Shown: positions 9,309 through 47,797 of the stretch, piece after piece | How the letters are laid out: each line of letters opens with the position of its first letter | How positions within the stretch are numbered: the first letter of the stretch is position 1 | NCBI GenBank assembly: GCA_017623055.1 | Contig: JAGAPX010000026.1 | Location: forward strand, 1 to 64,000 | DNA length: 64,000 bases | Reading direction: 5' to 3' | Origin: Phascolarctobacterium sp. | GTDB lineage: Bacteria; Bacillota; Negativicutes; Acidaminococcales; Acidaminococcaceae | Notes under the pieces: model-generated | Told to the model about the DNA's origin: nothing | The model's database searches: none | The model's input: the letters and a program-made list of their open reading frames with translations, nothing else | Position numbers and translations under genes: made by a program

Positions 9309-9337
9309 TGTTGATAAATTTTTAGGAGATGAAGTAC

Positions 9338-11281
9338 ATGAAAAAGAAAATTAGTAAAAGTCTACTGATGACAGCACTTATTACTGGTATGTGCATTGGG
9401 GGGGCACAGGGTGCCTTTGCGGCTGATGATTTGCAAGAGTTTACTCTTGACCCGATGATTGTTACTGCAACCAGAACTGAAAAAAGAGATTTGGATGTTC
9501 CTGCTACAACAAGTATTTATACCAGCAAGCAATTGGCTGATACAGGTGCAACTACTCTGGAAGGTGCTCTCAAATATGCAACTGGTGTAGTATATAAATC
9601 AGAAACTATTGGTGATGGTGGCGGTGAATTTTTAATCCGTGGTAAAAGACGCGGTACTTTGATGTTGGTTGACGGTGTACCACTTAACGTTAGAACTGGT
9701 TATTATGATTTGGATGCAATTAATATTGATGATATTGAACGCATTGAGGTTGTACGTGGTGGCGGTGCTGTTCTTTATGGCAGTGACGCTAGCGGTGGTG
9801 TTATTAACATTATTACAAAAGATAAAAAATCTAATAGTATTGTAGTATCCGGTGGTAATTATGGTGTTCAAAAATATCAAACTTCATTACAATTGGGTAA
9901 ATTGGGCATTGGCGCAAGCTGGGATAAAAAAGGACCTGTAGATAAAATTTCTAATGCTACAAGTGATGGTGTTTGTTTTAATTTCTATGGTGGCGAAAAA
10001 ACTATCCTAAATATGAATTATAAATTTAATGATAATTTAAAAATAACTGCTGATTATAATAATTATGATTATACTAGAGGATATATTTTCGAAGCAACTG
10101 AGTTGCCTTATGATAAACGTTTTATTAACAGAGAAGAATATAAAGTTGTTGTAAATTACGAACAAGATGGTTGGAAGGCTGATGCATACTATCATAAGGG
10201 GTCTTCTGATTCCAGGTATCATTACTGGGGAAATGAGTATAAATATGATCGTCTTTATGCTAATGCATATTCTTATGGACATACTGATGAAATTAAGGGT
10301 TTAGACATTACGAAAGAATTTAATTTCAAAAACGATACACTTTTAGTTGGTGCTAAAATGTATAATGAGTCCTATGATTATTACAATGGATACAGTAAAG
10401 AATATAAGGAAGCATTTGGTAAATCTAAATATTATAATTATGATTATAATAGAAATGTTTATTCTGTTTTTGCGCAGTTGGAACACAATTTTGACGAGAA
10501 GAATGATATGATTATTGGTGCTCGTGAAACTTGGACTGGTAGTTCTCCTGATGGAACAAACTATAGTGAATTTACTCCGCAAATCCAATATTTGCATAAA
10601 GTTAGTGATGACCTAAGTGCGTACGCTAGTGTAGCAAAATCATTTACTATGCCTACTATGAATGATATGTACGGAAAAGGTGAGGTTATTAAGAACTCTG
10701 AAATTAAACCTGAAGTAGGGATGCACTACGAAGCTGGTTTGAAACATATTTCTGGTGACCATTCTTGGAAATTAGCTGTATTTAAAAGTGATGTAGAAAA
10801 CTTTATAACAACTACTTCTAAAAAAATTGATGGAGTTACTCAAGATGTAGCAATTAACGAAGATACTAAAAATATGGGGATTGAACTTTCTGGCGAAGTT
10901 GTAAGTAAAAATGGTTTTAGTGCACATTGGGGTATTTCTTATAGTGATCCTCAATACAGGTCTGAAAAAGAAGATGGTGGTATTTGGAAACGAAATTATG
11001 GTCGCTGGTTGTTGAATGGTGGTCTTAACTATCAACAGGACAAGTTTAATATCAGCTTGAATGGTAGTTATATGGCGGATCGTGTTATGCAAAAGTACCA
11101 AGAAGATATTAAACCTTATTTCTATACTTCCTTGCATGCATCCTACAAGCCGACAAAAGATCATGAAATTTTCTTGAACGTAGATAACTTGTTGGATAGA
11201 GAAGACATCACTTCTCACGTTTCTTCCCGTTACAAATCCTTGGGAACTAACTTCGTCCTTGGTTACAAATATAAATTCTAA
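9338..11281 (+). CDS. TonB-dependent outer-membrane receptor 1
   Basis: The 647-aa receptor has a signal peptide (about residues 1-26, ending AFAA), a TonB-box-like stretch (EFTLDPMIVTATRTE), a plug domain with IRGKRRGTLMLVDGVPLN and IERIEVVRGGGAVLYGSDASGGVINIITK (residues about 90-165), and a beta-barrel ending in aromatic F. It should import a large chelate such as a siderophore, haem or corrinoid; the sequence alone does not say which. I chose ATG 9338 because TAGGAG is 9 bp upstream; ATG 9329 abuts the SD. It is first in an operon with a binding protein and a nitrogenase-like pair, under a MerR-type promoter and a structured leader. Confidence 0.93.
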   Translation: MKKKISKSLLMTALITGMCIGGAQGAFAADDLQEFTLDPMIVTATRTEKRDLDVPATTSIYTSKQLADTGATTLEGALKYATGVVYKSETIGDGGGEFLIRGKRRGTLMLVDGVPLNVRTGYYDLDAINIDDIERIEVVRGGGAVLYGSDASGGVINIITKDKKSNSIVVSGGNYGVQKYQTSLQLGKLGIGASWDKKGPVDKISNATSDGVCFNFYGGEKTILNMNYKFNDNLKITADYNNYDYTRGYIFEATELPYDKRFINREEYKVVVNYEQDGWKADAYYHKGSSDSRYHYWGNEYKYDRLYANAYSYGHTDEIKGLDITKEFNFKNDTLLVGAKMYNESYDYYNGYSKEYKEAFGKSKYYNYDYNRNVYSVFAQLEHNFDEKNDMIIGARETWTGSSPDGTNYSEFTPQIQYLHKVSDDLSAYASVAKSFTMPTMNDMYGKGEVIKNSEIKPEVGMHYEAGLKHISGDHSWKLAVFKSDVENFITTTSKKIDGVTQDVAINEDTKNMGIELSGEVVSKNGFSAHWGISYSDPQYRSEKEDGGIWKRNYGRWLLNGGLNYQQDKFNISLNGSYMADRVMQKYQEDIKPYFYTSLHASYKPTKDHEIFLNVDNLLDREDITSHVSSRYKSLGTNFVLGYKYKF

Positions 11282-11294
11282 TAGGTGATAAATT

Positions 11295-12251
11295 TTGCGT
11301 TGCTTATTTTTGATAATTATTTTAATAACGTTTTTAACAGGCTGTGGTTTTGATAGAGATAATGCTAAGCATACTACTGCAAGAACTTATAGCGTTACCG
11401 ATGATTTAGGTAATGTATTACAGTTTGATAAGAAACCTACTAAAATATATGCTTCTACTCTTAGTCTTGAAGAAGTACTTGTAGACTTAGTGAGTCCTGA
11501 TAGAATAGTAGCTATTTCAGAGATGGCAACGGATGAGAAATTGTCGCTTATTTCTCAAAAAGCATTACTCGTAAATAAAAAAACACAAGGAAGAATTGGC
11601 GTTGAGGGAATTCTTTCCCTCAACCCTGACCTTGTTTTAATGCAGGATAATATGGATGCTACCATCATTAATTCTTTGAAAGATGTTGGCTTGAAGGTAT
11701 TCGTAAGTAATGTTCCTGTCACTGTTGAAATGATAGGTAAAAGAATCCTAAAAATTTCTCAGGCAGTGGGTGAAGAAGAGAAAGGTAAAAAACTTGTTGG
11801 TGAGATGTGGAGTAAGATTTTAAAATCTCAAGAGAAGCTTTCTTCTTTAACCGACAATGATAAAAAAATTATAATGGCTTATTCTCAACAAGGTGTTTTT
11901 GGAAGTGCTAAAGGCGTGTTTAACGATATTTGTAATAAGGCTTTAGTAAAAAATGGTGCAGCTATGGCTGGTCTTGTAAGAGGTGAGCATTTAAGCAAAG
12001 AAAAAATTATAGAATATAATCCAGACATATTTATTTTCCCAAGTTATGATACTGGAAAATATGGAAACTTAGATTTATTTATCCAAGAAGTTCTTAATGA
12101 CCCTGCATTAACTAATGTAAAGGCAATTAAGAATAACAATATAATGATTATAAAGGATAGATACCGTTCAACTACATCACATTATGTTGGTGATGCAATT
12201 CTTGAGATTTCCAAGAATGCATATCCACAGTATTTTGAGGAGAGTAACTGA
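11295..12251 (+). CDS. FecB/BtuF-type periplasmic binding lipoprotein 1
   Basis: A 318-aa class III substrate-binding protein for metal chelates. The N-terminus MRCLFLIIILITFLTGC is a lipoprotein signal with lipobox LTGC. The two lobes carry family wording: KIYASTLSLEEVLVDLV, VEGILSLNPDLVLMQ near 110, and a long linking helix near 150-190. It starts at TTG 11295 with AGGTGAT 6 bp upstream; no ATG is suitable. It follows receptor 1 by 13 bp and its stop overlaps the next gene (TGATG). It should hand the ligand to a BtuC/D-type transporter; the only permease of that type in the window is at 35687. Confidence 0.88.
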   Translation: MRCLFLIIILITFLTGCGFDRDNAKHTTARTYSVTDDLGNVLQFDKKPTKIYASTLSLEEVLVDLVSPDRIVAISEMATDEKLSLISQKALLVNKKTQGRIGVEGILSLNPDLVLMQDNMDATIINSLKDVGLKVFVSNVPVTVEMIGKRILKISQAVGEEEKGKKLVGEMWSKILKSQEKLSSLTDNDKKIIMAYSQQGVFGSAKGVFNDICNKALVKNGAAMAGLVRGEHLSKEKIIEYNPDIFIFPSYDTGKYGNLDLFIQEVLNDPALTNVKAIKNNNIMIIKDRYRSTTSHYVGDAILEISKNAYPQYFEESN

Positions 12252-13528
12252 TGATAAAAAAGACTAAACGGAAAAAAGTTATACACTGTAATTTAAGTGA
12301 AGTTTATACATCAGTGGCATTTAATCCAGATATAGTTGTTATTGTACATGCTCCCAAGTCATGTTCTCATATTATTTATAATGCTTGGTTGAATAGCAAA
12401 AGAAAAATGTTACTAAACTATAATGGTCAGGTTCCAGATGTTGAGGATAATTTATTTATTACAGGAATGACTGATAAAGAAGCTATTTTTGGCGGAGAAA
12501 AATTATTAGAGAACTGTATTGCAAATGTAGTTCAGTATAAGAATCCTAAATGCATAATTGTGGCTTCTGGATGTGCAGCTGCTGTAATTGGTGATGATGT
12601 ACAATCAGTATGTGACAAAGCAGAAGTTAAATATAATTTACCCATTATATTTATTCCTGGTTCTGGCTTCATGAGTGACCAAACAAAGGATGGTTCTCTT
12701 TTAACTACATCTTATCTTTATAAAAAATTTATAAAGAATAACCAACCAATAAAAGATGAGCAGTCTGTCGTGGTATTAGGTTTGAACAGATTGCAGTTAT
12801 TGCAATGGGAGCTTTTAGAATTAAAAAGAATATACGGATATTTTGGATACACAAATTTATTATTACCTCCAAGTGGGTTATCAGTAGAAGAGTTAACCAA
12901 CATAAGTAAAGCTTCATTGATTGGGACATATGCTCCAACTGTAGAAAAACTCAAAGAATATAACAAATTCAGTAATATGTTGTCCAAGGAATTATCAATA
13001 CCCACAATTAATAATCGTATTCCCTTATCGATTAAAGAAACTTATGAATATATAAATACTATGGGTGTATTACTTGACAAAGAAGATGTTGCTGAATCTG
13101 CAATTATAAATGAACAAAACTTGCTTAACAGTAATTTAGAAAAATACAAATCAATTTTTCAGGGAGAAAGGTGTACGATAGCACTTGGGCATCCTCTAAG
13201 ATTTATACAAATTGATGAATTGATTTTTATATTAAAGAGTGTTGGTTTCCATATAAAGGGACTTGTTTTGCTTAATGACCTTACTGATTCTGAGTTTAAT
13301 GAGTATAAAAATTATCTTGAGAAATCTGATTGTGGATTACAAATTTCACAAGAAAATGAATGGAATTATACAGAAGATGATGATATTTTTATAACTTCCA
13401 TTTTTAATGAGAAATTCAAAAGACAATTTTGTTTCAGACGAAAAAGAATTGGTATCGGTGGTATAAAAGTATTTTTAGAAAGGTTAAGCATTATAACTAC
13501 CAATAATAGGAGTCTTGGACATGAATGA
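12251..13528 (+). CDS. Nitrogenase component 1-like protein (NifD/NifE/BchN-type), second set
   Basis: The 425-aa protein has the three-cysteine pattern of nitrogenase-like component 1 subunits: C13 (IHCN), C38 (HAPKSCSH) and C108 (ASGCAAAVIGDD). The last matches the CxxGLIGDD motif that ligates the bridging Fe-S cluster. It is shorter than true NifD (about 480-520 aa), and no NifE/N/B genes are present, so dinitrogen reduction is unlikely. Relatives BchN/B, BchY/Z and CfbD reduce tetrapyrroles. It overlaps the binding-protein gene by 1 bp and the next gene by 8 bp. No NifH is in this operon; the one at 32252 could serve it (inference). Confidence 0.8.
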   Translation: MIKKTKRKKVIHCNLSEVYTSVAFNPDIVVIVHAPKSCSHIIYNAWLNSKRKMLLNYNGQVPDVEDNLFITGMTDKEAIFGGEKLLENCIANVVQYKNPKCIIVASGCAAAVIGDDVQSVCDKAEVKYNLPIIFIPGSGFMSDQTKDGSLLTTSYLYKKFIKNNQPIKDEQSVVVLGLNRLQLLQWELLELKRIYGYFGYTNLLLPPSGLSVEELTNISKASLIGTYAPTVEKLKEYNKFSNMLSKELSIPTINNRIPLSIKETYEYINTMGVLLDKEDVAESAIINEQNLLNSNLEKYKSIFQGERCTIALGHPLRFIQIDELIFILKSVGFHIKGLVLLNDLTDSEFNEYKNYLEKSDCGLQISQENEWNYTEDDDIFITSIFNEKFKRQFCFRRKRIGIGGIKVFLERLSIITTNNRSLGHE

Positions 13529-14798
13529 TTTAGAAAAATTTAAACCTTGTACCGGCTATTGTCAGATGATTGGTGCTGCAACAGCATTGTTGAGCATCAA
13601 AAGCAGTTTGGTAATATTCAATAGTCCAAGATGGTGTGCCTTAACAGCAGAACGTGAACTTGCTTGTATAAATAAAGATTATGAGAGAAAGGTTTTTTGT
13701 ACTGAAGCAAGAGAGAATGATATTTTGTATGGCATAGAAAAGTCGTTACGAGAAACCATTAAAGAAGCAATAGACATAGAAGGTACACCAACGCTTTTAA
13801 ATGTTATTACCAGTTGTTCGATGAGTTTAATTGGTGACGATATTAAAGGTGTATGCGTAAGTGAAACTAACTGTAATAATGTGATAACATTGGATGCTGG
13901 AGGATTTACTGGAACGTTTGAATCTGGATATCAGCTGGCAATGATAGCGTTGTTGAAAAATATAAATTCCAAAGTTAGAGAACAAAAATCTTTAAAAGTA
14001 AATCTTTTAGGTGTTTGCACTAGTTACCCCAATTGGAAAGGTAATTTAGAAGAATTAAAAAGATTATTAAGATTAGCTGGTATTGAGGTTAATGTTGCTC
14101 TAGGTGCAGATAATACTGATTTTGCTGAATTAGAAAAAATTGTGGAAGCAGAATTAAATGTGGTGCTTGTTCCTGAATTAAGCTTGAATATTGCTAATTA
14201 TTTATATGAAAGTTTAGGACAAAGGTACATTGTTGCAACCATGCCCTTTGGCTTTAAAGATAGTATTAAATGGTTAAATGATATCAGTTCTGAATTAGGG
14301 GTTATATCAAACCTAAAAGAAATTGAAAATGAGATAGAGCAATTAGAAAGAGATATAATTGATGAATCATATTCAATGCGTAATTTCTTTTCTGATTTTA
14401 ATTTATTACAAGTAGCATCATCTTTACCAGAGTCATTAACAATATCCATTTTTAAAGCAATGAATAATTCAGGGGTAGACCTGTTAAAATGTAATGCGTG
14501 TTACTGTAACAAAAAAGATGTTATTGAACAGACATCATCTAACGAATCCTTCCCATTAAAACAATTAACGGAAATAAAAGGATTGGATGGAAAAGGTTAT
14601 CAGTTGCTTTTAGGCACGGAAAAAGAAAGAATGAGGTTTAAGGATTTCACAAGAACTTTATATTTAAATTTTTCTATGCCAATGGAAAAAATTAAGTGTG
14701 AAAATGATTGTTATGTTGGCGTAAGAGGTTGGTCTAATTTTGTAAGAAATATTTTTAGCCAAATTAAAACTTTGGAATATATTAACAAAAGCCTATGA
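13521..14798 (+). CDS. Nitrogenase component 1-like partner (NifK/BchB-type), second set
   Basis: The 425-aa partner subunit has candidate cluster ligands C10 or C14 (KPCTGYCQ), C39 (NSPRWCAL) and the cysteine of ITSCSMSLIGDD near residue 97. I start at ATG 13521, with ATAGGAG 8 bp upstream. Overlaps of 8 bp upstream and 4 bp downstream imply tight coupling and equal stoichiometry, as expected for a heterodimer or alpha2-beta2 complex. The body shows the alternating Rossmann-like pattern of the family (KVNLLGVCTSYPNW). The electron acceptor is unknown; a tetrapyrrole fits the gene context. Confidence 0.8.
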   Translation: MNDLEKFKPCTGYCQMIGAATALLSIKSSLVIFNSPRWCALTAERELACINKDYERKVFCTEARENDILYGIEKSLRETIKEAIDIEGTPTLLNVITSCSMSLIGDDIKGVCVSETNCNNVITLDAGGFTGTFESGYQLAMIALLKNINSKVREQKSLKVNLLGVCTSYPNWKGNLEELKRLLRLAGIEVNVALGADNTDFAELEKIVEAELNVVLVPELSLNIANYLYESLGQRYIVATMPFGFKDSIKWLNDISSELGVISNLKEIENEIEQLERDIIDESYSMRNFFSDFNLLQVASSLPESLTISIFKAMNNSGVDLLKCNACYCNKKDVIEQTSSNESFPLKQLTEIKGLDGKGYQLLLGTEKERMRFKDFTRTLYLNFSMPMEKIKCENDCYVGVRGWSNFVRNIFSQIKTLEYINKSL

Positions 14799-15745
14799 AA
14801 AATATTTTTAAATTCATTATTTACTCTAGTGTTGTCTTAACAATTTGTTTTGGTAGCTTCATGAAAGCGCAAGCTTTTGAGTCTAGTTCAAATGTGGTTG
14901 TTGATGCTACTGGATATGAGCATAAGATTAAAGATAAACCCGATAGGATAATATCTTTGAATACTTCTTGTGATGAGATTTTGTTAAATCTAGTTGATGA
15001 TAGTAGAATCGTTGCTATCTGCACTAATTCTACTGATCCCAATATGTCATTTGTAGTAGAAAGGGCTAGTAAATTTCTAACAAGGTTACCATTGCGTACT
15101 AATTGTGAGATTATCCTAGGATTACAACCAGATTTAGTATTATTTCCTGCTGGTGGTCCAAGGGAAATGGTTGATAGTCTAAGAGATTTGGGAGTAAATG
15201 TATTTGTCGTAAGAGCATCAAATAATATCCAAAGTATTAAGGAAAAAATAAAAGAAATATCTATTGTGGTAGGTGAGGAGAAAAAAGGAAAAATAATTTT
15301 GCAAGAAATGAATCAAAGATTATCCGAGGCGAAGCAGTTTATTGATAACAATAAGCTTTCACCAAAGGTAGTCCTAGGATTTACGTTTGCTGGTGCATAC
15401 GGCAATGTCAATGGATTGTTCCACGATATCTGTGTTCATGCAGGGGTAATTAATGGCGCTGCAGAAATGGGATTAAAAATGGGGGAACGACTTTCGGCTG
15501 AACAAGTTATAAAAGTAAATCCTGACATTGTACTTTTGCCAACTTGGAGTCATCATAAGAATAATAACCCTCAAAAATTTAAGGATGACTTTATTAATAA
15601 TGAACCATACAAAAATCTAAAAGCAGTTAGAACTAATAATGTTTATTTGCTAGATGAAAAATATAGAGGTTGTGGTTCTCATTATGTAGTAGATGGAATA
15701 ATCAAACTGCATAAGATTGCTTATTTCAATGATAAGTTGGAATAA
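14795..15745 (+). CDS. FecB/BtuF-type periplasmic binding protein 2
   Basis: A 316-aa class III binding protein with a conventional signal peptide (cleavage near QAFES, residue about 29) rather than a lipobox. Family features include VVVDATGYEHKIKDKPDRIISL, LGLQPDLVLFPAGG and the C-terminal GCGSHYVVDGI. It overlaps the nitrogenase-like gene by 4 bp (ATGA). A reductase pair between two binding proteins is unusual: the products act in different compartments. It may deliver ligand to the same transporter as the other FecB-type proteins. Confidence 0.85.
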   Translation: MKNIFKFIIYSSVVLTICFGSFMKAQAFESSSNVVVDATGYEHKIKDKPDRIISLNTSCDEILLNLVDDSRIVAICTNSTDPNMSFVVERASKFLTRLPLRTNCEIILGLQPDLVLFPAGGPREMVDSLRDLGVNVFVVRASNNIQSIKEKIKEISIVVGEEKKGKIILQEMNQRLSEAKQFIDNNKLSPKVVLGFTFAGAYGNVNGLFHDICVHAGVINGAAEMGLKMGERLSAEQVIKVNPDIVLLPTWSHHKNNNPQKFKDDFINNEPYKNLKAVRTNNVYLLDEKYRGCGSHYVVDGIIKLHKIAYFNDKLE

Positions 15746-16052
15746 ATTTTTATCTTTGGTAACAACAGTATGGGGCGCAAGCCCTGTACTGATTGTCTTA
15801 CACATCTTTTCACAACTCACTCTCACTCCTAAGTAATTTTTATAAAATACCTTTCTTGTGGTTCGTAGTTTTATCTGAAGAATTAACAAAAAATAAAATA
15901 CTGACAATTTTTTTATTGAGAATATTCCGAGAATAAAACACATACATCATCAACCAACTCTAAAACTCTTTCTTCTTTTAAAGCGACGTTCCCAAGTTGG
16001 TATTTTATAAAATTTTTGGGAGTGCAATATATTTAACTTGAAGGTGACAATT
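15746..16052 (+). other. 307-bp intergenic region with a long GCAA-capped hairpin
   Basis: It contains a strong hairpin with stem CAGTATGGGGC/GCCCTGTACTG (15766-15776 and 15781-15791), capped by GCAA and extended by GTAACAA/TTGTCTTAC, without a T-run. The string ACTCACTCTCAC (15815-15826) resembles the unpaired motif of the receptor leaders. A second dyad TCCCAA (15990-15995) / TTGGGA (16016-16021) lies just before the next operon. No MerR-type promoter was found here. Confidence 0.55.
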
Positions 16053-16862
16053 ATGTCTTTCCAAATAAAGCGTATATTGGGATATGTTTTGGGATTCGTA
16101 CTTTTTTACGCTCCCTTTGCGCTGTTTCAAAAAACTATTTGCTACGCTATGACGGGTAAGTGGCTACCCCTTACCATTCACAGCTTATGCTTTAGAATTC
16201 AAACTGAACATTTACTTGACGGCAAACTGTTTAATCAGGCACCCCTGTTTATAGTTTGCTTCCTTATTTTATTGGCTGTAAGCTTTATTTTTGGACCAAT
16301 CTATTGTGGCAAGCTTTGTCCTGCAGGTGCTTCTACGGAATATTTAAGTAGGCTTGTTCCGGAAAAATTCCAAATTGATTGGACAAAGCATGTAGATATT
16401 ACTCCTATCCGTTATGGTATGCTGGCTGGCTTTGTTATTATTCCCTTTTTTAATACTGTCATTGCTTGTGTTTACTGTAACTTCTTTTTGTTTGACCTGT
16501 TTGTTAATTATTTTATCTTTGGATATTTTATTTCGTTGACTTCTAGTTTAATCTTAACTGCAATTGTGTGGGTAATTTTCTTTGGCTTGTTTACCAAAGG
16601 TGGCAGAGGTTTCTGTAATTTTCTTTGTCCTGTTGGGGCAATTCAAAGTTTTATTTATTACATTGGTTGCAAAACTCCTTGGTCTTATAAACTTAAGGTG
16701 CAACGCTGTAAATGCATTGGTTGTCAAAAATGCGTGAAGGCTTGTCCTATGGGGGCAATGTATATTCGTGATAAGAAGGCAGCGCACAATGTTCATAATT
16801 GTATTTTGTGTGGTGAATGTATTAATGCTTGTCCTGTTAAGGCTATTAAGTACAAGAGGTAA
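16053..16862 (+). CDS. NapH-like membrane polyferredoxin
   Basis: The 269-aa protein has about four to five membrane helices, two membrane-flanking CxxxCP motifs (CGKLCPAG near 90 and CNFLCPVGA near 190) and two C-terminal ferredoxin motifs (CIGCQKCVKACP and CILCGECINACP) for [4Fe-4S] clusters. NapH, NosR and YccM relatives pass electrons across or along the cytoplasmic membrane. ATG 16053 follows AAGGTG by 6 bp. It heads a three-gene cluster with a Cys-rich small protein and an anchored protein of unknown function. Whether it supplies electrons to the nitrogenase-like proteins is speculation. Confidence 0.85.
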   Translation: MSFQIKRILGYVLGFVLFYAPFALFQKTICYAMTGKWLPLTIHSLCFRIQTEHLLDGKLFNQAPLFIVCFLILLAVSFIFGPIYCGKLCPAGASTEYLSRLVPEKFQIDWTKHVDITPIRYGMLAGFVIIPFFNTVIACVYCNFFLFDLFVNYFIFGYFISLTSSLILTAIVWVIFFGLFTKGGRGFCNFLCPVGAIQSFIYYIGCKTPWSYKLKVQRCKCIGCQKCVKACPMGAMYIRDKKAAHNVHNCILCGECINACPVKAIKYKR

Positions 16863-18472: not shown

Positions 18473-18505
18473 CTGTCATTGAAATTATTAAATGGTGGTG
18501 TTTTT

Positions 18506-20157
18506 ATGAAGTGGAATGGTAGGAAGGCTTTCCTAATTTTGGCAGTTTTTAGCTGTAGCTTTTTAAATAGTCAACAAAATGTTTATGCAGAAGAAAAATT
18601 ACAAGAATTTGTTTTAGATCCAATGGTAGTAACTGCTCAAGGCTTTGCTACTAAGGATTTAGAAACTCCTGCGTTGGTAGAAGTTTTCAATGAAAAAGAA
18701 ATTGAAGATAGTGGTGCCAATAATGCTTACGATGTTTTGCAAGATACTTTAGGTGTTACTGCTTCTTCCTATGGTTTTAATGGAACTAACCAAGGAACTA
18801 TGACTTCTAAAATTATGGTGCGTGGAGTGCAGGACGGAACTTTAGTTTTGGTAGATGGCATTCCCATGAATATGGATGGGCGTTATAATCTTGACGATAT
18901 TCCTAGTGATGCTATCGAGCGTATTGAAGTTGTTAAAGGTGGAGGTTCCGTTTTGTACGGAAGTGAAGCGACTGGCGGCGTGATTAATATTATCACTAAA
19001 AAGCAGTTGCGAAATAAAATTAAGGTTGCGACTGGCAACTATGGTAAAGAGCGTTACGATATCAGTATTGGCTCAGGTAAGTTTAATTTGCTTGCTGGCT
19101 TGGAAAATCGTGGGGAAGCAAAAAATTTAAAAGGTCTTGGCTACAACAAGGCTCCTGAAAAAGAAAGTGTTTATGATTATGGCAAGGGAGAACGTCAAAG
19201 TATACGTTGGAACTATTTGTTGAGCGAGGGTTTGACTTTTACACATAGTTATTCTGAAAATGAAAATAGATATTTGAAACGTAAGTATCTTAGTCATACC
19301 TATAATCAGATGAATGATTATAAGAATACGGATAACAGCTTTTTGCTTGACTATGATAAAGATGGGTGGAAGGCGTATATTTCTTATGGTACTCAAGAAA
19401 AGGATAACGACCAAACAAATATCAAGAGTGGTGTAAGAGAACTGATAAATAATTACAACTGGCGCAAGGGGCATAATACCAATATGAAATTGCAAAAGCA
19501 GGTAAATCTTTTAAGCTGCCGACGATGACACAAATTTATGGTAGCGGAGCTTTGCAACCAGCGTTGGACTTGAAGCCAGAAGAGGGAACTCATTATGAAA
19601 TTGGCTACAAGCTAAACGCAGAAAAGAGTGCTTGGCGTTTGGCAATCTTCAATTACGAAGTAAAGGATTCTGTGGAAGCAGTAAAGAATGAAGATGAGAG
19701 TCAAGGTTACGATTATTTTAATAAGGATATTCGTAACACAGGGGTTGAGATTTCCGTAACGCTTGCACACGACAATAAATGGACTAGCCGTTGGGGCGTG
19801 ACTTATCATAATCCGCAAGTAAGGGATGATAACCCCGATGGTTATGCAGATAATGCTTGGCACGATTACGGAAGCAGGTATCAAATTAATGGCTCACTTA
19901 GTTATGTAGATGCTAAGTTCAGCAGTACCTTGAAGGCTAATTTTGTGGGTGACAGAACTTCTGACACCAAGGAGCAACGTCATATTAAACCACAATTATT
20001 TACGGACTGGCATTTTTCTTATCAGCCTCAGGCAAATCATAAAGTCTTTTTGCATATCAACAACATCTTGGACAGAAGAGATATCGTTTCCACAGGGAAC
20101 AGCAATTACTATAATTTAGGACGTAACTTTATGTTAGGGTATGAGTATTTGTTTTAG
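18506..20157 (+). pseudogene. TonB-dependent receptor with an out-of-frame internal deletion
   Basis: The N-terminal part (ATG 18506, SD GGTGGTG) has a signal peptide, TonB-box-like EFVLDPMVVTAQ and a full plug (IERIEVVKGGGSVLYGSEATGGVINIITKK), then stops at 19526-19528. The barrel continues in another frame (open before 19490, through GKSFKLPTM, to the terminal F at 20157). Alignment by eye with receptor 1 indicates that about 100 residues between the NWRKGHNTN segment and GKSFKLPT are missing, with a frameshift at the join near 19485-19500. The product cannot form a barrel. The promoter is intact, suggesting recent loss. Confidence 0.87.
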
Positions 20158-23158: not shown

Positions 23159-23189
23159 TTGACAGTAAAGTTGCTATATAGTTTATCAT
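23159..23189 (+). promoter_or_regulatory. MerR-type promoter P4 (19-bp spacer)
   Basis: TTGACA (23159-23164), 19 bp ending GCTATATAGTT, TATCAT (23184-23189), 32 bp ahead of the cbiZ start. Confidence 0.87.
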
Positions 23190-23221
23190 TAGAAAAAATA
23201 AAAGCAGTTAAGGAGACGGTT

Positions 23222-24307
23222 ATGTCTGAACACATTTGCACCCTTTCTACAGGTGATAAGGTTTATTTTTACGATAAAAGCATAGTGATTTTCTTTAATG
23301 GCAAGCGTAAAGTGTTGAGCACTTCCGTTTATAATGGTGGCTACCACGAAGATTACGTTGCAGTTTATAATTACGATGCTAAGCAAGGCTCAGGTATGCC
23401 ATGCGAAGTTTTGGCAGATACTTACGTTGAACATATGCGTTTAATTTCCAAACGTCTTGCTCTAAATCCAGATATGGTTACTGGAATGGGAACGGCGGCG
23501 AGCATGGAGAATGCTGTCGTTGAAAAAATGAACTATAAAGATTTGACCATAACTGCCATTGTGACTGGTGGTATTGAAACGAATGGTGGTCGTGTTGGTG
23601 ATCCTTCCGATTATTACAAACCTTTAGAGCGCTTAGATAAATGCGGAACAATAAACATAATGCTCGTTTTGGACTGTGATATGCCAGCAGGAGCATTAGC
23701 ACGCGCTCTCGTTACTTGTACGGAAGCAAAGACAGCTGCTATTCAAGAACTGCTTGCTGGAAGCAATTATTCCAATGGCTTAGCCACAGGCAGCGGTACA
23801 GACCAGACAATTATTGTTGCCAATCCAGAAAGAGATTTGTATTTTGAAACAACGGGTAAACATTCTAAACTTGGTGAAATGATTGGCAAGGTTGTCATCA
23901 AAGCAGTGAAGCGCGCTTTAGAAAAACAAGCTGGCTTAAATGCAGAATTTCAGCATAACGTATTCCGTCGTTTAAAACGCTTTGGTATTTTGCCGGGAAC
24001 AATGTGGGGAGAATACCAAGAAGCTACCAATGCAGAAGTAAAGCCTGTCTACCTCCTCGCTGCGGAAAATCTGGCGAAAGACAAAATGATGCTAACATTT
24101 ACTTCCTTATATATACATCTGCTTGACCAATTTTTATGGCAACTTATTAACGCAGAAGAAATGCAGATAGCTGGGCAAAACTTGCTTGATACAATTGCTT
24201 CCTATTATAATGTAGAAAGTGAGCAGATTCTGGAAGCAAACCTTGAGGGAATGTTAGCAAGCTGGAAAGCTTTGTTCAATAAAATTATCGCTGTAAAAAG
24301 TGAATAA
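23222..24307 (+). CDS. cbiZ: CbiZ-type adenosylcobinamide amidohydrolase
   Basis: The 361-aa protein has the CbiZ core: VTGGIETNGGRVGDP near residue 125, TINIMLVLDCDMPAGALARALVTCTEAKTAA near 155-185, and GLATGSGTDQTIIVA near 205. CbiZ cleaves the nucleotide loop of adenosylcobinamide derivatives so that salvaged corrinoids can be rebuilt with the cell's own lower ligand. It is longer than minimal CbiZ (about 220-240 aa), with about 85 extra N-terminal and 130 C-terminal residues. ATG 23222 has AAGGAG 6 bp upstream. It has its own MerR-type promoter. Confidence 0.85.
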   Translation: MSEHICTLSTGDKVYFYDKSIVIFFNGKRKVLSTSVYNGGYHEDYVAVYNYDAKQGSGMPCEVLADTYVEHMRLISKRLALNPDMVTGMGTAASMENAVVEKMNYKDLTITAIVTGGIETNGGRVGDPSDYYKPLERLDKCGTINIMLVLDCDMPAGALARALVTCTEAKTAAIQELLAGSNYSNGLATGSGTDQTIIVANPERDLYFETTGKHSKLGEMIGKVVIKAVKRALEKQAGLNAEFQHNVFRRLKRFGILPGTMWGEYQEATNAEVKPVYLLAAENLAKDKMMLTFTSLYIHLLDQFLWQLINAEEMQIAGQNLLDTIASYYNVESEQILEANLEGMLASWKALFNKIIAVKSE

Positions 24308-25530: not shown

Positions 25531-27480
25531 ATGAAAAAGATGACTAAAGCAATGCTTATGACTGCTCTTATTTGTGGCACAATGTATTGCGGTGCAGAAC
25601 CTGTTCATGCAAATGAACTGCAAGAGTTTACCCTTGACGAGTATGTAGTAACAGCTGCGAGAACAGAAACTAAATTAGTAGATACCCCTGCGAATATTAG
25701 CGTGGTAACTGCTGAACAAATTGAAAGCAGACATTATACTAACGTTGCGGAAGCATTGAAAGATGTACCAGGTGCAAATGTTTTGGATACTGGTAATGGT
25801 TCTTATGAAAAACCTATATTATTAAATGGTGATGAACGTGTATTAGTATTGGTTGATGGTAGAAGAGTTAATTTTGATATAGGAACTATGTCTGGCAGAG
25901 CTGGTTATGATTTAAACCAATTACCTGATGTGGGACTTATCGAACGCATTGAAGTATTAAAAGGTGCTGGTGGTGCACTTTATGGTTCTGATGCTGTTGG
26001 CGGTGTAATTAACGTTATTACTAAAAAGGCTGATAGAAGTTACGGGAAAGTTTCTGTAGGTATTGGTTCTAATGGTACTAAAGACTATAATGTTTTATAC
26101 TCTATTAAACAAGATGGTACTGGAATAAACTTATCTGCATCTAAGTATAAACAAGATTATTACAAATATAGACATTATGAATCAGATACAACAAAGCGTT
26201 GGCCTTATGATGTAGATATGGACAACGAAAAGGTTTCTCTTAGCCTTACACAAGAATTGAACGATGATAGTAATATCACAGTTGGTTATGATTATAGTAA
26301 TTCAGAAGGACTTGGTACTTCTCAAATGAAGTATTCTTCTCAAAGAATAGAAAAGCGTACTGATAACTTTTATGCTAAATATGATTGGACTTTGAATAAA
26401 AAGGATCAAGGCTATTTGCAATTTTATCATAATGAGTTAGATTATTATTTCTCTGGTGGTATGGAAGAGAAAACTAATGGCATAGATGCTCAACAAGCTA
26501 TTACAATTGCTGATAATAATAAGCTTATAGTTGGTGCTTCTTGGCGTGAAGCAAAAGCTTTTAATGAGTATTATTATCAACAAGAAGAAAAAATAGAAAA
26601 TTTAGCTTTGTTTGTTAATGACATCTGGGAATTTGCACCCACATGGTCTTTAAACGCAGGAGCACGTTATGACAATCATAGTGAAGCTGGAAATGAAACT
26701 ACATTTAGTGCAGGCTTAAATAAAAAAATTAGCGATAATAGTCATGCATATATTAATTGGGGACAAGTATTTAAAGCTCCCAATACTGATGATTTGTTTT
26801 ATTATGCACCTGGTGGTTCCTATGAATATAATGGAGTAACCTATTATTATGGACCGTCTTTGGGTAACAAAGATTTAAAACCTGAAACTGGTGAAACATG
26901 GTCTGTTGGGTATACTTCTCTGATTTCCGATAAAACTAATATTGGTATCAATTATTTTGAAAGTGATTTGGTTGATGCGATAGATTGGGTTAGTGGAATC
27001 GGTGCAGAACCAACTTATGTTCGCAATGTAGATGAACAAAAGAAAAAAGGATTTGAAATGAGTGTTAGTCATAAATTGAATGACACTTTAGATTTAGAAG
27101 CATCTTATACCTATATAAAAGTAGAAAATAATGATGCAGGTGCAGGGTTTGAAAGAGATTGGAATTATATTCCCAATTTGTACAGAATTGGTGCTCGCTA
27201 TCATGATGGTAAATGGAATGCTGATTTATTCTTGCGTTATGGTGCAGGTGGTTCTACTGGTACACATGGTGGCAAACAATCTTATGTAGAAAGTGATTAT
27301 ATGACTATAGATTTGGCGGTTACTTATCAAGCAGCAAAAAATATTAAAGTGTTTGCAAAAGGTTATAACTTGCTTAATGAGGCATATTGTGAACAAGCTG
27401 GATATATTAGCGATTTAGGTTCTTATAATTGTCCCGCACAAGCTCGTCGTTTCTTGATTGGTGCTGAATACTCCTTCTAA
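25531..27480 (+). CDS. TonB-dependent outer-membrane receptor 2
   Basis: A 649-aa receptor with a signal peptide (KAMLMTALI core, cleavage near residue 28), TonB-box-like EFTLDEYVVTAARTE, a plug with ERVLVLVDGRRVN and IERIEVLKGAGGALYGSDAVGGVINVITKK, and a barrel ending in F. The plug wording is closer to BtuB/FepA/colicin-receptor types than the other receptors here. It is a single-gene unit with its own MerR-type promoter, leader RNA and downstream hairpin. The ligand is unknown. ATG 25531 follows TAGGAG. Confidence 0.93.
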   Translation: MKKMTKAMLMTALICGTMYCGAEPVHANELQEFTLDEYVVTAARTETKLVDTPANISVVTAEQIESRHYTNVAEALKDVPGANVLDTGNGSYEKPILLNGDERVLVLVDGRRVNFDIGTMSGRAGYDLNQLPDVGLIERIEVLKGAGGALYGSDAVGGVINVITKKADRSYGKVSVGIGSNGTKDYNVLYSIKQDGTGINLSASKYKQDYYKYRHYESDTTKRWPYDVDMDNEKVSLSLTQELNDDSNITVGYDYSNSEGLGTSQMKYSSQRIEKRTDNFYAKYDWTLNKKDQGYLQFYHNELDYYFSGGMEEKTNGIDAQQAITIADNNKLIVGASWREAKAFNEYYYQQEEKIENLALFVNDIWEFAPTWSLNAGARYDNHSEAGNETTFSAGLNKKISDNSHAYINWGQVFKAPNTDDLFYYAPGGSYEYNGVTYYYGPSLGNKDLKPETGETWSVGYTSLISDKTNIGINYFESDLVDAIDWVSGIGAEPTYVRNVDEQKKKGFEMSVSHKLNDTLDLEASYTYIKVENNDAGAGFERDWNYIPNLYRIGARYHDGKWNADLFLRYGAGGSTGTHGGKQSYVESDYMTIDLAVTYQAAKNIKVFAKGYNLLNEAYCEQAGYISDLGSYNCPAQARRFLIGAEYSF

Positions 27481-31255: not shown

Positions 31256-31292
31256 ACAGTCCCAAAGCGTAATCGCTTTGGGACTGTTTTAT
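31256..31292. terminator. Bidirectional terminator between the nitrilase and merR-like genes
   Basis: A 14-bp perfect stem ACAGTCCCAAAGCG / CGCTTTGGGACTGT (31256-31269, 31274-31287) with loop TAAT has T-runs on both strands. Confidence 0.95.
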
Positions 31293-32134
31293 TTTTTCTT
31301 TACGTTAAGGAAAATTTTATTAATATATTCGTCCGTATCTTTATAGAACAAATGGTTTTCAATGGTAAGTATGTAAATATCACCACTGGCTTCTAATTCG
31401 TTTAGCTCCATAAATTTGTTGATTATATCTACAAGCTTAGGAAAGTTTTTATAGAAGGTTCCCTTAAAATAAATTTCCAGATATAATCCAGCAGGAATTT
31501 TTATCATGGACTTTGCTTTATGTTTAGGCGTGTTCAGAACGAAAGAGAAGTAAGCTTTTGTAGGATGGTAGTCTCGTTTTACAAACAAGTCTTCTTGGGA
31601 GATTATCCAGCCAACATGACGCTCTAAAGATTTTTTATTATGGAAAGTATGTTGGGCATGTTTCGTAAATAAAACTATTCTATCTTTGCCAGAGTCTTTG
31701 CTATAAACGGGAGTAACTTTCATCAAGCGTTCTTCTTGGAATGTAAGTAAGGGCTTGAAAAAAACGAAAGGTCTCTCGCATTTTGCAATGTCGTTGATAG
31801 CTTCTAAAGATTTTATGATTGCTTGGTTTTCTTTGATGATAGCCATACATTCTTTTTCTTTGCGTGCCACCAAGTCGATAAAATCATTTTTACTACGTTT
31901 TTCAAGATAAGTTTTTATATCCGGTATGCTGATATTGAAGGAGCGCAGATTAACAATGATCTCCAAATCTAAATATTGTTGGATTGAATAATGCCTATAG
32001 CCTTTTTCGCAAATAAAATCAGGTGAGAGTAGGCCTATTTTGTCATAATACAACAAGGTTTGTTTAGAGATTCCAAAAAGATTTGCGAGTTCTCCTGCTG
32101 TGAAATAGGCATCGTCAGAATTATTGTTGCTCAT
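31289..32134 (-). CDS. MerR-family transcriptional regulator, likely activator of the window's 19-bp-spacer promoters
   Basis: A 281-aa protein with an N-terminal MerR winged helix (residues about 10-78: FTAGELANLFGISKQTLLYYDKIGLL, then GYRHYSIQQYLDL), a dimerisation coiled coil (about 85-115) and a C-terminal effector-binding domain of the BmrR/GyrI-like size class (about 120-281). It lacks the short Cys-rich metal-loop tail of MerR, CueR or ZntR, so an organic ligand is more likely than a bare metal ion. It is divergent from the perfect operator at 32155-32175, whose edge is about 20 bp from its start codon, so it probably represses or autoregulates itself. Start ATG 32134 has AGGTGA upstream. 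Confidence 0.9.
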   Translation of the reverse strand: MSNNNSDDAYFTAGELANLFGISKQTLLYYDKIGLLSPDFICEKGYRHYSIQQYLDLEIIVNLRSFNISIPDIKTYLEKRSKNDFIDLVARKEKECMAIIKENQAIIKSLEAINDIAKCERPFVFFKPLLTFQEERLMKVTPVYSKDSGKDRIVLFTKHAQHTFHNKKSLERHVGWIISQEDLFVKRDYHPTKAYFSFVLNTPKHKAKSMIKIPAGLYLEIYFKGTFYKNFPKLVDIINKFMELNELEASGDIYILTIENHLFYKDTDEYINKIFLNVKKK

Positions 32135-32251: not shown

Positions 32252-33058
32252 ATGAAAAAGATTGCTATATATGGTAAGGGTGGAATTGGTAAATCTACAA
32301 CAACGGCAAATGTGTCTGCTGCATTGAGCGAAAATGGCTTGAAGGTTTGTCAAATTGGTTGCGACCCCAAAAATGATTCCACACGTCTGTTGCTGGGAAG
32401 AATTTGTACCCAAACAGTTTTAGATGTTGTGCGTGATAAAGAAGAAGTTTTAGCGGAAGATATTGTGCATATTGGTTACAACGGAATTAAGTGCGTGGAA
32501 GCTGGCGGACCTGAACCGGGAGTTGGTTGTGCAGGACGTGGTATTATCGTTGCCTTGGAAAAACTCCGTTCTTTAGACGTCATTGAAGACGAAGATGTTT
32601 TGCTTTACGATGTTTTAGGTGACGTAGTATGTGGCGGTTTTGCTGTACCAATTCGTGAAGGCTACGCTACTGATATTTACATTGTTTCTTCTGGTGAGCT
32701 GATGAGTCTTTACGCTGCCAACAATATTGCCAAAGGCGTGAAACGTTTTGCTTTACGTGGAGGTGTTCGTTTAGGCGGAATCATTGGTAACAGCCGTAAT
32801 ACTCCCAACGAAAAGAATTTGTTGGAAGAATTTGCCAAACGTTTAAATACAAAACTGATTGCCTTTATTCCTCGTGATGTTGTTGTGAATAAGGCGGAGA
32901 ATAATCGCCAAACTGTTTTGCAATATGCACCAGAAAGTGAGCAGGCGCAAATCTATCGCAATTTGAGCAAGGTGCTTGTTGAAAATGCAGAGCTTACTGT
33001 GCCTACGCCAATGACCTTTGAAGAATTAGAAAAGCTGGTTGAAAAATATGGGAATTAA
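32252..33058 (+). CDS. NifH/BchL/CfbC-like ATP-dependent reductase iron protein
   Basis: A 268-aa homodimeric Fe-protein-like ATPase. Walker A GKGGIGKST is at residues 8-16, CDPKNDST near 37 and the cluster ligands are C93 (GVGCAGRG) and C127 (DVVCGGFAVP). It would use ATP hydrolysis to push electrons from a ferredoxin to a component 1 partner. TTAGGAGG precedes ATG 32252. It overlaps the next gene by 11 bp. It is the only NifH-like gene in the window, whereas there are two component 1 pairs. Confidence 0.93.
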   Translation: MKKIAIYGKGGIGKSTTTANVSAALSENGLKVCQIGCDPKNDSTRLLLGRICTQTVLDVVRDKEEVLAEDIVHIGYNGIKCVEAGGPEPGVGCAGRGIIVALEKLRSLDVIEDEDVLLYDVLGDVVCGGFAVPIREGYATDIYIVSSGELMSLYAANNIAKGVKRFALRGGVRLGGIIGNSRNTPNEKNLLEEFAKRLNTKLIAFIPRDVVVNKAENNRQTVLQYAPESEQAQIYRNLSKVLVENAELTVPTPMTFEELEKLVEKYGN

Positions 33059-34340
33059 AACTAAACGCTTTATCAATATCAGAAAAAGTTGTAGCTGCAG
33101 TATGCCCGGTGTATGGCGAGCAGTTGCTTATATGGATGGTGTGGTCGTGATTTTCCATAGCCCTCGTGCGTGCGCACATATTGCTCGTACAATGGATATC
33201 AATACTCATTATCGTGCTATGGGTGATGGTAGAAAAGAAGAACGTGCTTCCGTACCATTGTTGTCTAGTCAATTGGAAGAAAAACATTCCATTTTTGGTG
33301 GTATAGATAGATTAAAGAAGTGTATTGCTTACGCTATAGAAAAGTACGATCCCAAATGCTTGGTGTTAGGTGGTTCCTGCGTTGCCGGTGTAATTGGTGA
33401 CGATGTGGAAGCTGTAGCTAAAGAAGTTGAAGAAGAATATAATTTGCCAGTCATTACGGTGGATAGCTACGGATTTTTAGATGGTGAATTTTTTGAAGGC
33501 TACTTTGAAATTACTTATAAATTGATTGATAGATATTTATATCCGCAGGAGCATATTCCTAAAACAGTGGTGCTGATTGGGGATAATGGTGGACCGTGGG
33601 GACATTACGCTACTGAGGTTACAAGAATTTTAAAAGCAATGGGTGTTACTGTTATTGGTCAGTTCCCCGGTTATATTACCCTTGCAGATTTACCCAAGAT
33701 TACCAGTGCAGAAGCAATGGTCGTTTTAGGTGGTAAGGGGAATACTCACGAAGGTCTCGAGTGCTTGACAAAACGTTTGCAGGAAAAATTTGGCTTTAAA
33801 TTTTTGCAGGACGTTTATCCTGTTGGCTGGGAAAGAACTCAGCAATGGATTGTAGAGATGGGTAAGCTGTTAAATTGTGAAGAAAAGGCTGAAGAAGTTT
33901 TGCAAGCAGAACGCCTTCTTATGGAGAAAAGCTTGGCACAATTTTTGTCGGTGACCAAAAGTAAAAAGGCTACTCTTTGCATTGGCAGATGGTTAATGTA
34001 CTTCCATCCAGAGTCCATGCTAGGTGTAATTAATGCCTTAGAGTTAGATTTGCAGGGAATAGTTTTGCTTGATGCTTTGGAAGCAGGCTATTTTGACGAA
34101 ATGGTGGGCGCATTGCGCAAATATACCGATGTTCCTATTTATTCTAATCTTGACGGTGAACGCTTGCTGAAAGAAGCAGATGTGGTACTGACAACGCACG
34201 AGCTGCAGGACAAAAACTTGAAGCAGGTTTTCTTGCCTATGCTTCCTAAAGTGGGAACCCTTGGAGAAATTGAATTTATGCAAGTCATTTATAGAGTGCT
34301 GTGTAGTAAGCACAAGGGCGGAGGTTTAGTTTATGTATAG
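33048..34340 (+). CDS. Nitrogenase component 1-like protein (NifD/BchN-type), first set
   Basis: The 430-aa protein has cluster-ligand candidates C15 or C17 (KSCSCSMPG), C42 (HSPRACAH) and C111 (GGSCVAGVIGDD). An alternative TTG at 33039 adds three residues but has no better SD. It resembles the 12251 protein in layout (HxPxxC; SCxAxVIGDD), so the two sets are paralogous. Length is that of BchN/CfbD-class enzymes rather than NifD. It overlaps nifH-like and nifK-like genes by 11 and 8 bp. Confidence 0.85.
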   Translation: MGIKTKRFINIRKSCSCSMPGVWRAVAYMDGVVVIFHSPRACAHIARTMDINTHYRAMGDGRKEERASVPLLSSQLEEKHSIFGGIDRLKKCIAYAIEKYDPKCLVLGGSCVAGVIGDDVEAVAKEVEEEYNLPVITVDSYGFLDGEFFEGYFEITYKLIDRYLYPQEHIPKTVVLIGDNGGPWGHYATEVTRILKAMGVTVIGQFPGYITLADLPKITSAEAMVVLGGKGNTHEGLECLTKRLQEKFGFKFLQDVYPVGWERTQQWIVEMGKLLNCEEKAEEVLQAERLLMEKSLAQFLSVTKSKKATLCIGRWLMYFHPESMLGVINALELDLQGIVLLDALEAGYFDEMVGALRKYTDVPIYSNLDGERLLKEADVVLTTHELQDKNLKQVFLPMLPKVGTLGEIEFMQVIYRVLCSKHKGGGLVYV

Positions 34341-35631: not shown

Positions 35632-35690
35632 AAAGACTGTGGCTAATCTGCTTGGTTTACCCGGAATATTTTAGAGGTGAGAAATCTTGA
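35628..35690 (+). CDS. Candidate 20-aa ORF coupling nifK-like and permease genes
   Basis: ATG 35628 overlaps the preceding TGA (ATGA); its own TGA (35688-35690) overlaps the permease's TTG start (TTGA). The peptide (MKRLWLICLVYPEYFRGEKS) is hydrophobic in its first half. Overlaps at both ends suggest that it keeps ribosomes moving to the permease start. Whether the peptide itself functions is unknown. Confidence 0.4.
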   Translation: MKRLWLICLVYPEYFRGEKS

Positions 35691-44647: not shown

Positions 44648-44680
44648 CACGACCATGCAAGACTGGGTGCGTGAAAGGTT
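44648..44680 (+). ncRNA. Short form of the receptor leader hairpin (receptor 3)
   Basis: ATGCAC and GTGCGT flank GACC-ATGCAAGACT-GG, matching the inner hairpin of the other leaders (GACC, GAAAGACTGG) with a different but paired stem. The outer helix and CTCTCACA stretch are missing. Confidence 0.5.
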
Positions 44681-44705
44681 AAGTATATTTTTGGGAGATG
44701 ACGTA

Positions 44706-46742: not shown

Positions 46743-46749
46743 AATTTCC

Positions 46750-46776
46750 AATGACGGCGCTTTGTGCGCCGTCATT
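46750..46776 (+). other. Intercistronic hairpin after receptor 3
   Basis: AATGACGGCGC (46750-46760) / GCGCCGTCATT (46766-46776) is an 11-bp perfect stem without a T-run. It fits an mRNA-processing or attenuation element separating receptor and binding-protein cistrons rather than a full terminator. Confidence 0.7.
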
Positions 46777-46823
46777 ACAACTTTTCTAAATCCATAAACG
46801 TGCTGACGAAAGATGTATATATA

Positions 46824-47783: not shown

Positions 47784-47797
47784 TGGGAGTTAATTTT

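Follow-up and report, generated by a model that had tools for sequence, protein, structure and literature searches.

A satellite nitrogenase-like operon in Phascolarctobacterium that may use the resident Fe protein for corrinoid salvage

Comparison with described nitrogenase-like enzymes may provide clues to the function of an operon found in a stretch of 64,000 nt of Phascolarctobacterium sp. (contig JAGAPX010000026.1; hereafter the window, its genome being labeled G000). The window carries two pairs of component 1 genes, A1-B1 and A2-B2, and one gene, H, for a NifH-like Fe protein, which adjoins A2-B2. The chlorophyll enzymes DPOR (BchLNB) and COR (BchXYZ) consist of an ATP-dependent Fe protein and a heterodimeric component 1 without a FeMo-type cofactor, and their substrate is a tetrapyrrole, as is proposed here. 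However, each has its own Fe protein, and there is no chlorophyll pathway here. In DPOR the cluster ligands are three cysteines plus an aspartate, as opposed to six cysteines here. CfbCD also performs a nitrogenase-like reduction of a metallo-tetrapyrrole, and the window H scores 384 bits against a CfbC cut-off of 402. Unlike the two component 1 genes here, CfbD is a single-subunit homodimer (PMC11423573), and no F430 pathway was seen here. MarHDK and IsrHDK (group IV) have separate H, D and K subunits, with six P-cluster cysteines in MarDK; Mar also contains an [Fe8S9C] cluster, which the NifB-like MarB helps to make and Cys270 ligates (PMC12552129). In contrast, A1B1 has neither a NifB-like neighbor nor an equivalent cofactor cysteine. 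Finally, NifH serves both NifDK and NifEN and is thus an example of one Fe protein with two component 1 complexes. These belong to one pathway, in which NifEN is a cofactor maturase, whereas the two pairs here appear to be mobile, interchangeable reductases with their own receptors.

Two other systems are alike in gene content. In Dehalobacter restrictus, operon-2 (FepBCD-CbiZ-CobN-chelatase) is controlled by a riboswitch and goes up 346-fold on corrinoid starvation; nitrogenase is never mentioned in the text of that paper (PMC4285132). HmuS belongs to the CobN superfamily and, in gut anaerobes, its gene accompanies those for TonB and ABC import, but it is single-component, ATP-independent and membrane-linked (PMC12583661), whereas CobN is here accompanied by BchI and BchD. 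In the literature on nitrogenase-like genes with Negativicutes, heme, CbiZ, CobN or riboswitches, no description of the present system was found. The closest sighting is a remark that Phascolarctobacterium faecium and Selenomonas had "nifD" reads but no nifK (PMC8597730). Based on the comparisons below, it seems fairly probable that the A1-B1 operon is a plug-in satellite form of a nitrogenase-like system for corrinoid salvage. The operon has the gene order TonB - FecB - A1 - B1 - FecB:

9329-11281, + strand, T1, TonB-dependent outer-membrane receptor, first gene of the module (plug and barrel, PF00593/PF07715; an ATG also at 9338)
11295-12251, + strand, P1, FecB/BtuF-type binding lipoprotein, lipobox LTGC, TTG start (PF01497, Peripla_BP_2, 3.5e-24)
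12251-13528, + strand, A1, alpha-type component 1 subunit, clade I in the trees (PF00148, 2e-39)
13515 (TTG) or 13521 (ATG)-14798, + strand, B1, beta-type component 1 subunit, clade I in the trees (PF00148, 1.2e-51)
14795-15745, + strand, P2, FecB-type binding protein, signal peptide without lipobox (PF01497, Peripla_BP_2, 5.8e-30)

The frames overlap by 1 nt (P1/A1), 8-14 nt (A1/B1) and 4 nt (B1/P2), and T1 and P1 are separated by 13 nt. The five-gene operon is real and translationally coupled, and the coupling of A1 and B1 to two FecB-type genes, claimed by an earlier sequence-only reading of this DNA, stands. P1 and P2 are 34.7% identical to each other. The same reading had described two component 1-like genes with three-cysteine patterns. 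Both indeed belong to PF00148 (A1 136 bits and B1 176 bits, cut-off 28.6), and their cysteines (A1 C13/C38/C108, B1 C16/C41/C101), like those of A2 (C20/C45/C114) and B2 (C17/C42/C102), fall in the alignment columns of the P-cluster ligands of the NifK and NifE of relatives. Among 44 alpha and 44 beta sequences from clades I and II, the lineages of A1/B1 and A2/B2, 43 alpha chains keep all three cysteines, the remaining one being a truncated frame, and the three beta positions are kept in 42, 44 and 41, respectively. A1 and B1 each have the three P-cluster-position cysteines of the NifDK and MarDK type; in MarDK and nitrogenases the same six positions hold an [8Fe-7S] cluster (PMC12552129). 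B1 of the window and of its relative G024 has an extra CNACYC motif (residues 326-331), which is not present in the clade I beta chains of G043, G050 and G047.

A1 and B1 reach none of the curated cut-offs of the nitrogenase, DPOR, COR and CfbD models. They score 61 bits with the nifD equivalog model (cut-off 653), at most 83.5 bits with the DPOR/COR models (equivalog cut-offs of at least 324), and 37 and 32 bits with the CfbD model TIGR03282 (cut-off 268). The wider ranges noted here are 49-99 bits for BchB (cut-off 490) and 23-46 bits for CfbD. The AlphaFold2 model of A1 (mean predicted local distance difference test score 77.9) is best matched by MarDK chain 9d9u_B (Z 24.1), followed by the MoFe protein (Z ~22.9), NifEN (22.1) and DPOR chains (~21.9). 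These matches support the component 1 fold, but the Z scores do not separate the subfamilies. A1 residues 121-308 contain no cysteine, i.e. none where NifD has its cofactor cysteine (NifD Cys275), and no A1 histidine aligns with the NifD histidine ligand (NifD His442) of G061 and G020. NifB (TIGR01290, E <= 1e-20) had no match in the window genome, nor was it found in any of the 23 genomes of the order with clade I or II but with neither clade III (see below) nor nif genes. Nitrogen fixation and Mar/Isr-type chemistry are ruled out by the missing NifB and cofactor ligands. A1B1 is thus neither a nitrogenase nor Mar-like; judging by its sequence, it is similar to the tetrapyrrole reductases that work without such a cofactor, and its set of cysteines is unusually complete.

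The window genome (1.72 Mb in 46 contigs, 98.3% complete, 2.8% contaminated) contains exactly four PF00148 genes, all inside the window. PF00142 detects one real Fe protein in the entire genome (366 bits, 32255-33052; cut-off 25), plus a MinD-like ATPase (52 bits). No nifH-like gene is present in the operon 9329-15745, and PF00142 finds no second H elsewhere. The sequence-only reading, which had called the 32252 protein the only iron protein of the window, is therefore true for the whole genome, and the dedicated nifH that it had named as fatal to its proposal was searched for across the genome and not found. H is a member of the NifH/CfbC Fe protein family with a P-loop and both cluster cysteine motifs (GKGGIGKS, GVGCAGRG and GDVVCGGF), and its score with the nifH equivalog model, 393.5 bits, is just under the cut-off of 394.35. 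The genes around H, with others relevant below, are:

23159-24307, + strand, CbiZ-family adenosylcobinamide amidohydrolase (PF01955, 1.1e-54)
31289-32134, - strand, MerR-type regulator, divergent from H (PF13411/PF00376)
32252-33058, + strand, H, the only NifH-like Fe protein of the genome and candidate shared reductase (PF00142, 366 bits, single copy; H tree)
33039-34340, + strand, A2, alpha-type component 1 subunit, clade II (PF00148, 1.3e-50)
34333-35631, + strand, B2, beta-type component 1 subunit, clade II (PF00148, 1.5e-52)
35687-36724, + strand, FecCD/BtuC-type permease, candidate shared importer (PF01032, 5.6e-95; best NCBIfam matches BtuC)
36738-40457, + strand, CobN-type chelatase large subunit (TIGR02257, 903.5 bits, cut-off 822)
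40357-41496, + strand, radical SAM/SPASM-like protein (PF04055; reaches no curated cut-off)
41493-42524, + strand, BchI-type chelatase AAA subunit
42541-44463, + strand, BchD-type chelatase subunit (AAA and VWA domains)
44655-46742, + strand, TonB receptor
46764-47783, + strand, FecB-type binding protein
47783-48631, + strand, FecE ATPase

FecBCD/BtuFCD, CbiZ, and CobN with chelatase AAA subunits, that is, the gene set of the Dehalobacter operon-2, are thus all in the window. A FecB-type gene lies between B2 and FecCD in G023, G024, G025 and other relatives and is missing from the window (35631-35687). In the pairwise comparison that the sequence-only reading had proposed, A1 and A2 are 26.6% identical and B1 and B2 30.0%, as opposed to 18-22% for the cross pairs; these are therefore two pairs of corresponding subunits and not a recent tandem copy.

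The relationship of the two pairs was studied in trees of the component 1 proteins of the order and of the class; the comparison genomes and loci carry G and L labels, and several are draft metagenome-assembled genomes (MAGs). A1/B1 belong to clade I, whose sister group, clade II, contains A2/B2; the alpha and beta trees mirror each other. Clade I is supported by SH-aLRT (Shimodaira-Hasegawa-like approximate likelihood ratio test) values of 95 and 98 in one set of trees and 98 and 91 in the second. In the trees it comprises eight genomes (the window genome, G024, G043, G047, whose A gene contains a stop, G050, G664, G478 and G733), which belong to four families of the class. The surroundings of H in G046 are collinear and make this genome a possible ninth. 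Among the named relatives the best is G024, a Phascolarctobacterium MAG from roe deer caecum (A1 98% identical); the other two are RUG097 (G050) and Succiniclasticum ruminis DSM 9236 (G043). A contig scan with the A1 profile returned three named loci only, its peptide patterns being narrow; the class-wide search is more sensitive.

Mostly, clade I is an H-less TonB-FecB-A-B module (the window, G024, G664 and G733). Clade III pairs, found in six relatives (L088, L097, L098, L102, L105 and L067), always have a NifB-like neighbor and no adjacent NifH, and are likely to be Mar/Isr-like enzymes that also borrow an Fe protein. Clade IV (L070, G031:C4) has its own distant H (50% identical) in an operon TonB-TIM barrel-FecB-H-FecCD-FecE-A-B, which in L070 lies directly behind a cobalamin riboswitch (G031:C4:82372-82563). 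The clade IV beta chains lack all three cluster cysteines.

Four independent patterns in the distribution of H among these genomes suggest that one Fe protein serves both pairs. First, in the window genome and in G024, the clade I pair is the orphan, H being next to clade II, and the total number of H genes is one. Second, the linkage is reversed in S. ruminis DSM 9236: its single H is in a clade I operon (BchI-BchD-TonB-FecB-FecB-A-B-Nit-H), and its clade II and clade III pairs are orphans without H. In the H tree, the S. ruminis protein clusters (98/94) with those of G045 and G054, which stand alone in genomes that have a clade II pair and no other. Therefore, a near-identical H must serve clade II in two species and sits with clade I in a third. 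Third, in the complete, single-contig genome G478 the clade I profile matches nothing but clade I itself, which is the only pair of the clade I/II type there; the only H of this genome lies nearby and shares 78% identity with the window H. An H of this family thus works, or worked, with clade I alone. Fourth, in genus g26, from another family, eight species have two alpha genes and one H, two of them (G527 and G529) as single contigs. In their sister G528 a second H is kept beside the second pair, indicating that loss of H beside a retained pair recurs. In the g26 second pair, serine replaces the third beta cysteine in 3/3 loci (L201, L203 and L204), with or without an own H. Finally, in G664 and G733 the clade II operon and H are located elsewhere in the genome than the H-less clade I module.

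The proposal of the sequence-only reading that one NifH-like reductase supplies two component 1 complexes thus receives strong support from the comparison of genomes: the window genome has a single H, the linkage of H is reciprocal in relatives, and genomes with two pairs and one H recur. It is very probable, on these sequence comparisons, that the resident H is shared by A1B1 and A2B2, and H would then dock physically on A1B1. The analogy with BchLNB and BchXYZ offered in that reading is wrong, because BchL and BchX are separate Fe proteins; the right precedent is NifH with NifDK and NifEN.

Several lines of evidence connect both pairs with corrinoids. First, CobN is present in 29/29 genomes with clade I or II versus 1/34 others (63 genomes of the order, in which species are not independent), and the contrast also holds within genus g14, where four members have both and three have neither. 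CbiZ is present in 19/29 clade I/II genomes and often adjoins CobN; BchI and BchD are often present too. Second, in G031, G020 and G021 a cobalamin riboswitch precedes H on the same strand, at a distance of no more than about 200 bp. Such riboswitches also head the series TonB-TonB-Nit-BchI-BchD-H-A2-B2 as well as CbiZ-CobN in G062, BchI-BchD-H in G478 and, in the congener G025, the TonB operon syntenic with window positions 44655-48631 and an ECF (energy-coupling factor) operon of the cluster. By our own estimate (at most 15 riboswitches in a genome of ~2 Mb), the chance of a riboswitch at such a site is ~0.001 per genome. Third, there is the riboswitch-controlled Dehalobacter operon mentioned above. 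Fourth, clade II is replaced by clade I within the CobN-CbiZ-BchI-BchD cluster of S. ruminis, RUG097 and G478. This replacement suggests alternative ligands rather than consecutive steps. Of the two options in the sequence-only reading, "different substrates or successive bonds", the latter is thus disfavored, and the former fits in the form of alternative ligands. Together, the CobN co-occurrence, the riboswitches, the Dehalobacter operon and the clade replacement favor a corrinoid or a close relative as the ligand of both pairs, and a corrinoid-type ligand is considered likely from these genomic associations. The ligand forms probably differ between receptors. The view that the imported ligand is the substrate gains indirect support from the receptor and binding proteins retained in a conserved module in several families, and from the control of the wider gene set by cobalamin riboswitches in relatives. 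Phascolarctobacterium species are propionate producers dependent on B12 enzymes (PMC7568257).

The following scheme may be proposed. T1 would import a corrinoid, or a closely related metallo-tetrapyrrole, through the outer membrane, and P1 and P2 would pass it to a FecCD/BtuC-type importer encoded elsewhere, most likely the 35687 permease with the 47783 ATPase. In the cytosol, the A1B1 heterodimer, with a six-cysteine Fe-S cluster and no FeMo-type cofactor, would reduce the ligand in the pocket where DPOR and CfbD bind tetrapyrroles, with electrons and ATP coupling presumably coming from the resident H (32252), normally the partner of A2B2. Both the corrinoid as ligand and the reduction of its ring or its cobalt are conjectural parts of this scheme; given the rest, the case for ring rather than cobalt reduction is evenly balanced.

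There are also data that weigh against this proposal. First, G056 (L096, L097) has two pairs and no H was found in it, its genome being 96% complete; this is an assembly gap or something stranger, and a warning that drafts can miss H. Second, no cobalamin riboswitch (RF00174) was found in the window, also with permissive settings, or in its genome, so the corrinoid link rests on relatives. Third, riboswitch control is a link to corrinoid status and not a proof that a corrinoid is the substrate. Fourth, the first beta cysteine is gone in two clade I chains, being serine in G047 (with a stop codon in the A gene) and alanine in G733, and some satellites may therefore decay or differ. Fifth, the AlphaFold2 model of B1 is poor beyond residue 282 (the C-terminal third) and was not used. 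As a separate observation, RF00174 is missing from the window genome though cobalamin-pathway genes are present, and congeners have 2-6 riboswitches.

The Fe protein could be shared while the ligand is heme or another porphyrin or chlorophyll breakdown product, with CobN-BchI-BchD acting as an HmuS-like de-chelatase and the pairs reducing the macrocycle for iron or magnesium harvest. The CobN homologue HmuS does strip heme iron in gut Bacteroidota (PMC12583661). Moreover, the binding proteins score with IsdE models, and T1 with TonB-hemin models, much as with B12 models (all far under the cut-offs), and the several diverged receptors per genome suggest several ligands. However, cobalamin riboswitches head the clusters in at least five relatives, the corrinoid enzyme CbiZ is repeatedly encoded beside CobN, and HmuS needs no ATP subunits whereas BchI and BchD are present here; a porphyrin ligand is thus unlikely.

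With a corrinoid as the ligand, the enzymes could instead reduce its cobalt from Co(II) to Co(I), before adenosylation or remodeling, and leave the ring untouched. The same operon evidence applies, a low-potential ATP-driven electron donor would suit Co(I) formation, and remodeling of the CbiZ type requires adenosylated corrinoids. However, to our knowledge all characterized cofactor-free nitrogenase-like enzymes (DPOR, COR and CfbCD) reduce C=C bonds of the macrocycle, and the Co(I) reductases known to us are much simpler, which makes pure cobalt reduction distinctly unlikely.

Returning to the satellite proposal, the operon has features of a mobile cassette. Its GC content is 30-34%, compared with 42-43% for H-A2-B2, CobN and the upstream genes. 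Between the window and G024, the synonymous divergence (dS) is 0.06-0.12 for P1-A1-B1-P2, 0.26-0.53 for H, A2, B2, FecCD, CobN and the following NapH-like gene, and ~1.0 for T1, which is only 69% identical to its syntenic G024 gene while its neighbors are 95-99% identical. Compared with L086/L087, T1 (9329-11281) and a further receptor, T4 (25531-27480), are both only 69% identical to the syntenic genes of G024 (dS ~1.0) between flanks of 94-99%, so that the receptors were either swapped or strongly diversified. Clade I is absent from two further members of the genus. The low GC, low dS and patchy presence fit a recent transfer of the cassette followed by receptor exchange; in Phascolarctobacterium, it was probably acquired horizontally. 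No match was found in phage records; in plasmid records searched with B2 as the query (A1 and B1 were not searched), only nifE/bchB-type genes of <30% identity were among the matches listed. A scan for promoters and terminators gave signal no better than chance. No permease, ATPase or H was acquired with the cassette, so it would need resident parts. The importer is not certain, since a further FecCD permease is encoded on contig C34 of the window genome.

An AT-rich, recent acquisition without partner genes could also be a degenerating or cryptic remnant that no longer works with H, and the clade I copy of G047 has indeed decayed (a stop in A, Cys to Ser in B). However, in the window the frames are intact and all six cysteines are kept, the dN/dS (ratio of nonsynonymous to synonymous divergence) of A1 and B1 against G024 is 0.13-0.17, which argues against decay, and the H-less architecture is intact in G664 and G733; a remnant is thus very unlikely. 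It is extremely improbable that a dedicated H for A1B1 is hidden in a gap of the 46-contig draft, given its 98.3% completeness, two pairs with one H also in the near relative G024, and the same stoichiometry in S. ruminis, G733 and the single-contig G527 and G529.

More tentatively, and with less than even confidence, these genes may represent an undescribed nitrogenase-like branch performing ATP-driven reduction of corrinoids, whose component 1 spreads among gut bacteria as an interchangeable receptor-binding protein-enzyme cassette that uses the resident Fe protein and importer. The chemistry might then be a ring reduction through which CobN-BchI-BchD could exchange the cobalt, or it might serve to salvage corrins that are damaged or lack a metal. 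Within the nitrogenase superfamily, group IV is the part that largely lacks assigned functions, and the tie to CobN, CbiZ and riboswitches gives a testable substrate class. If true, corrinoid chemistry would be added to a family known for reductions in N2, chlorophyll, F430 and C-S chemistry. The genomes with two pairs and one Fe protein, two of them single-contig, are a natural system for studying Fe protein partner choice. Such genes can also inflate counts of nitrogen fixers based on nifH or nifD in gut metagenomes.

Two neighboring features lie downstream of the operon. A TonB receptor at 18479-20157 is split into two overlapping frames (18479-19528 and 19525-20157) and is probably broken or internally deleted. 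The NapH-like gene at 16038-16862, directly behind the operon and also present in G024, encodes a membrane ferredoxin with a divergence history unlike that of the cassette (dS 0.28 against G024), and its product could be an electron donor.

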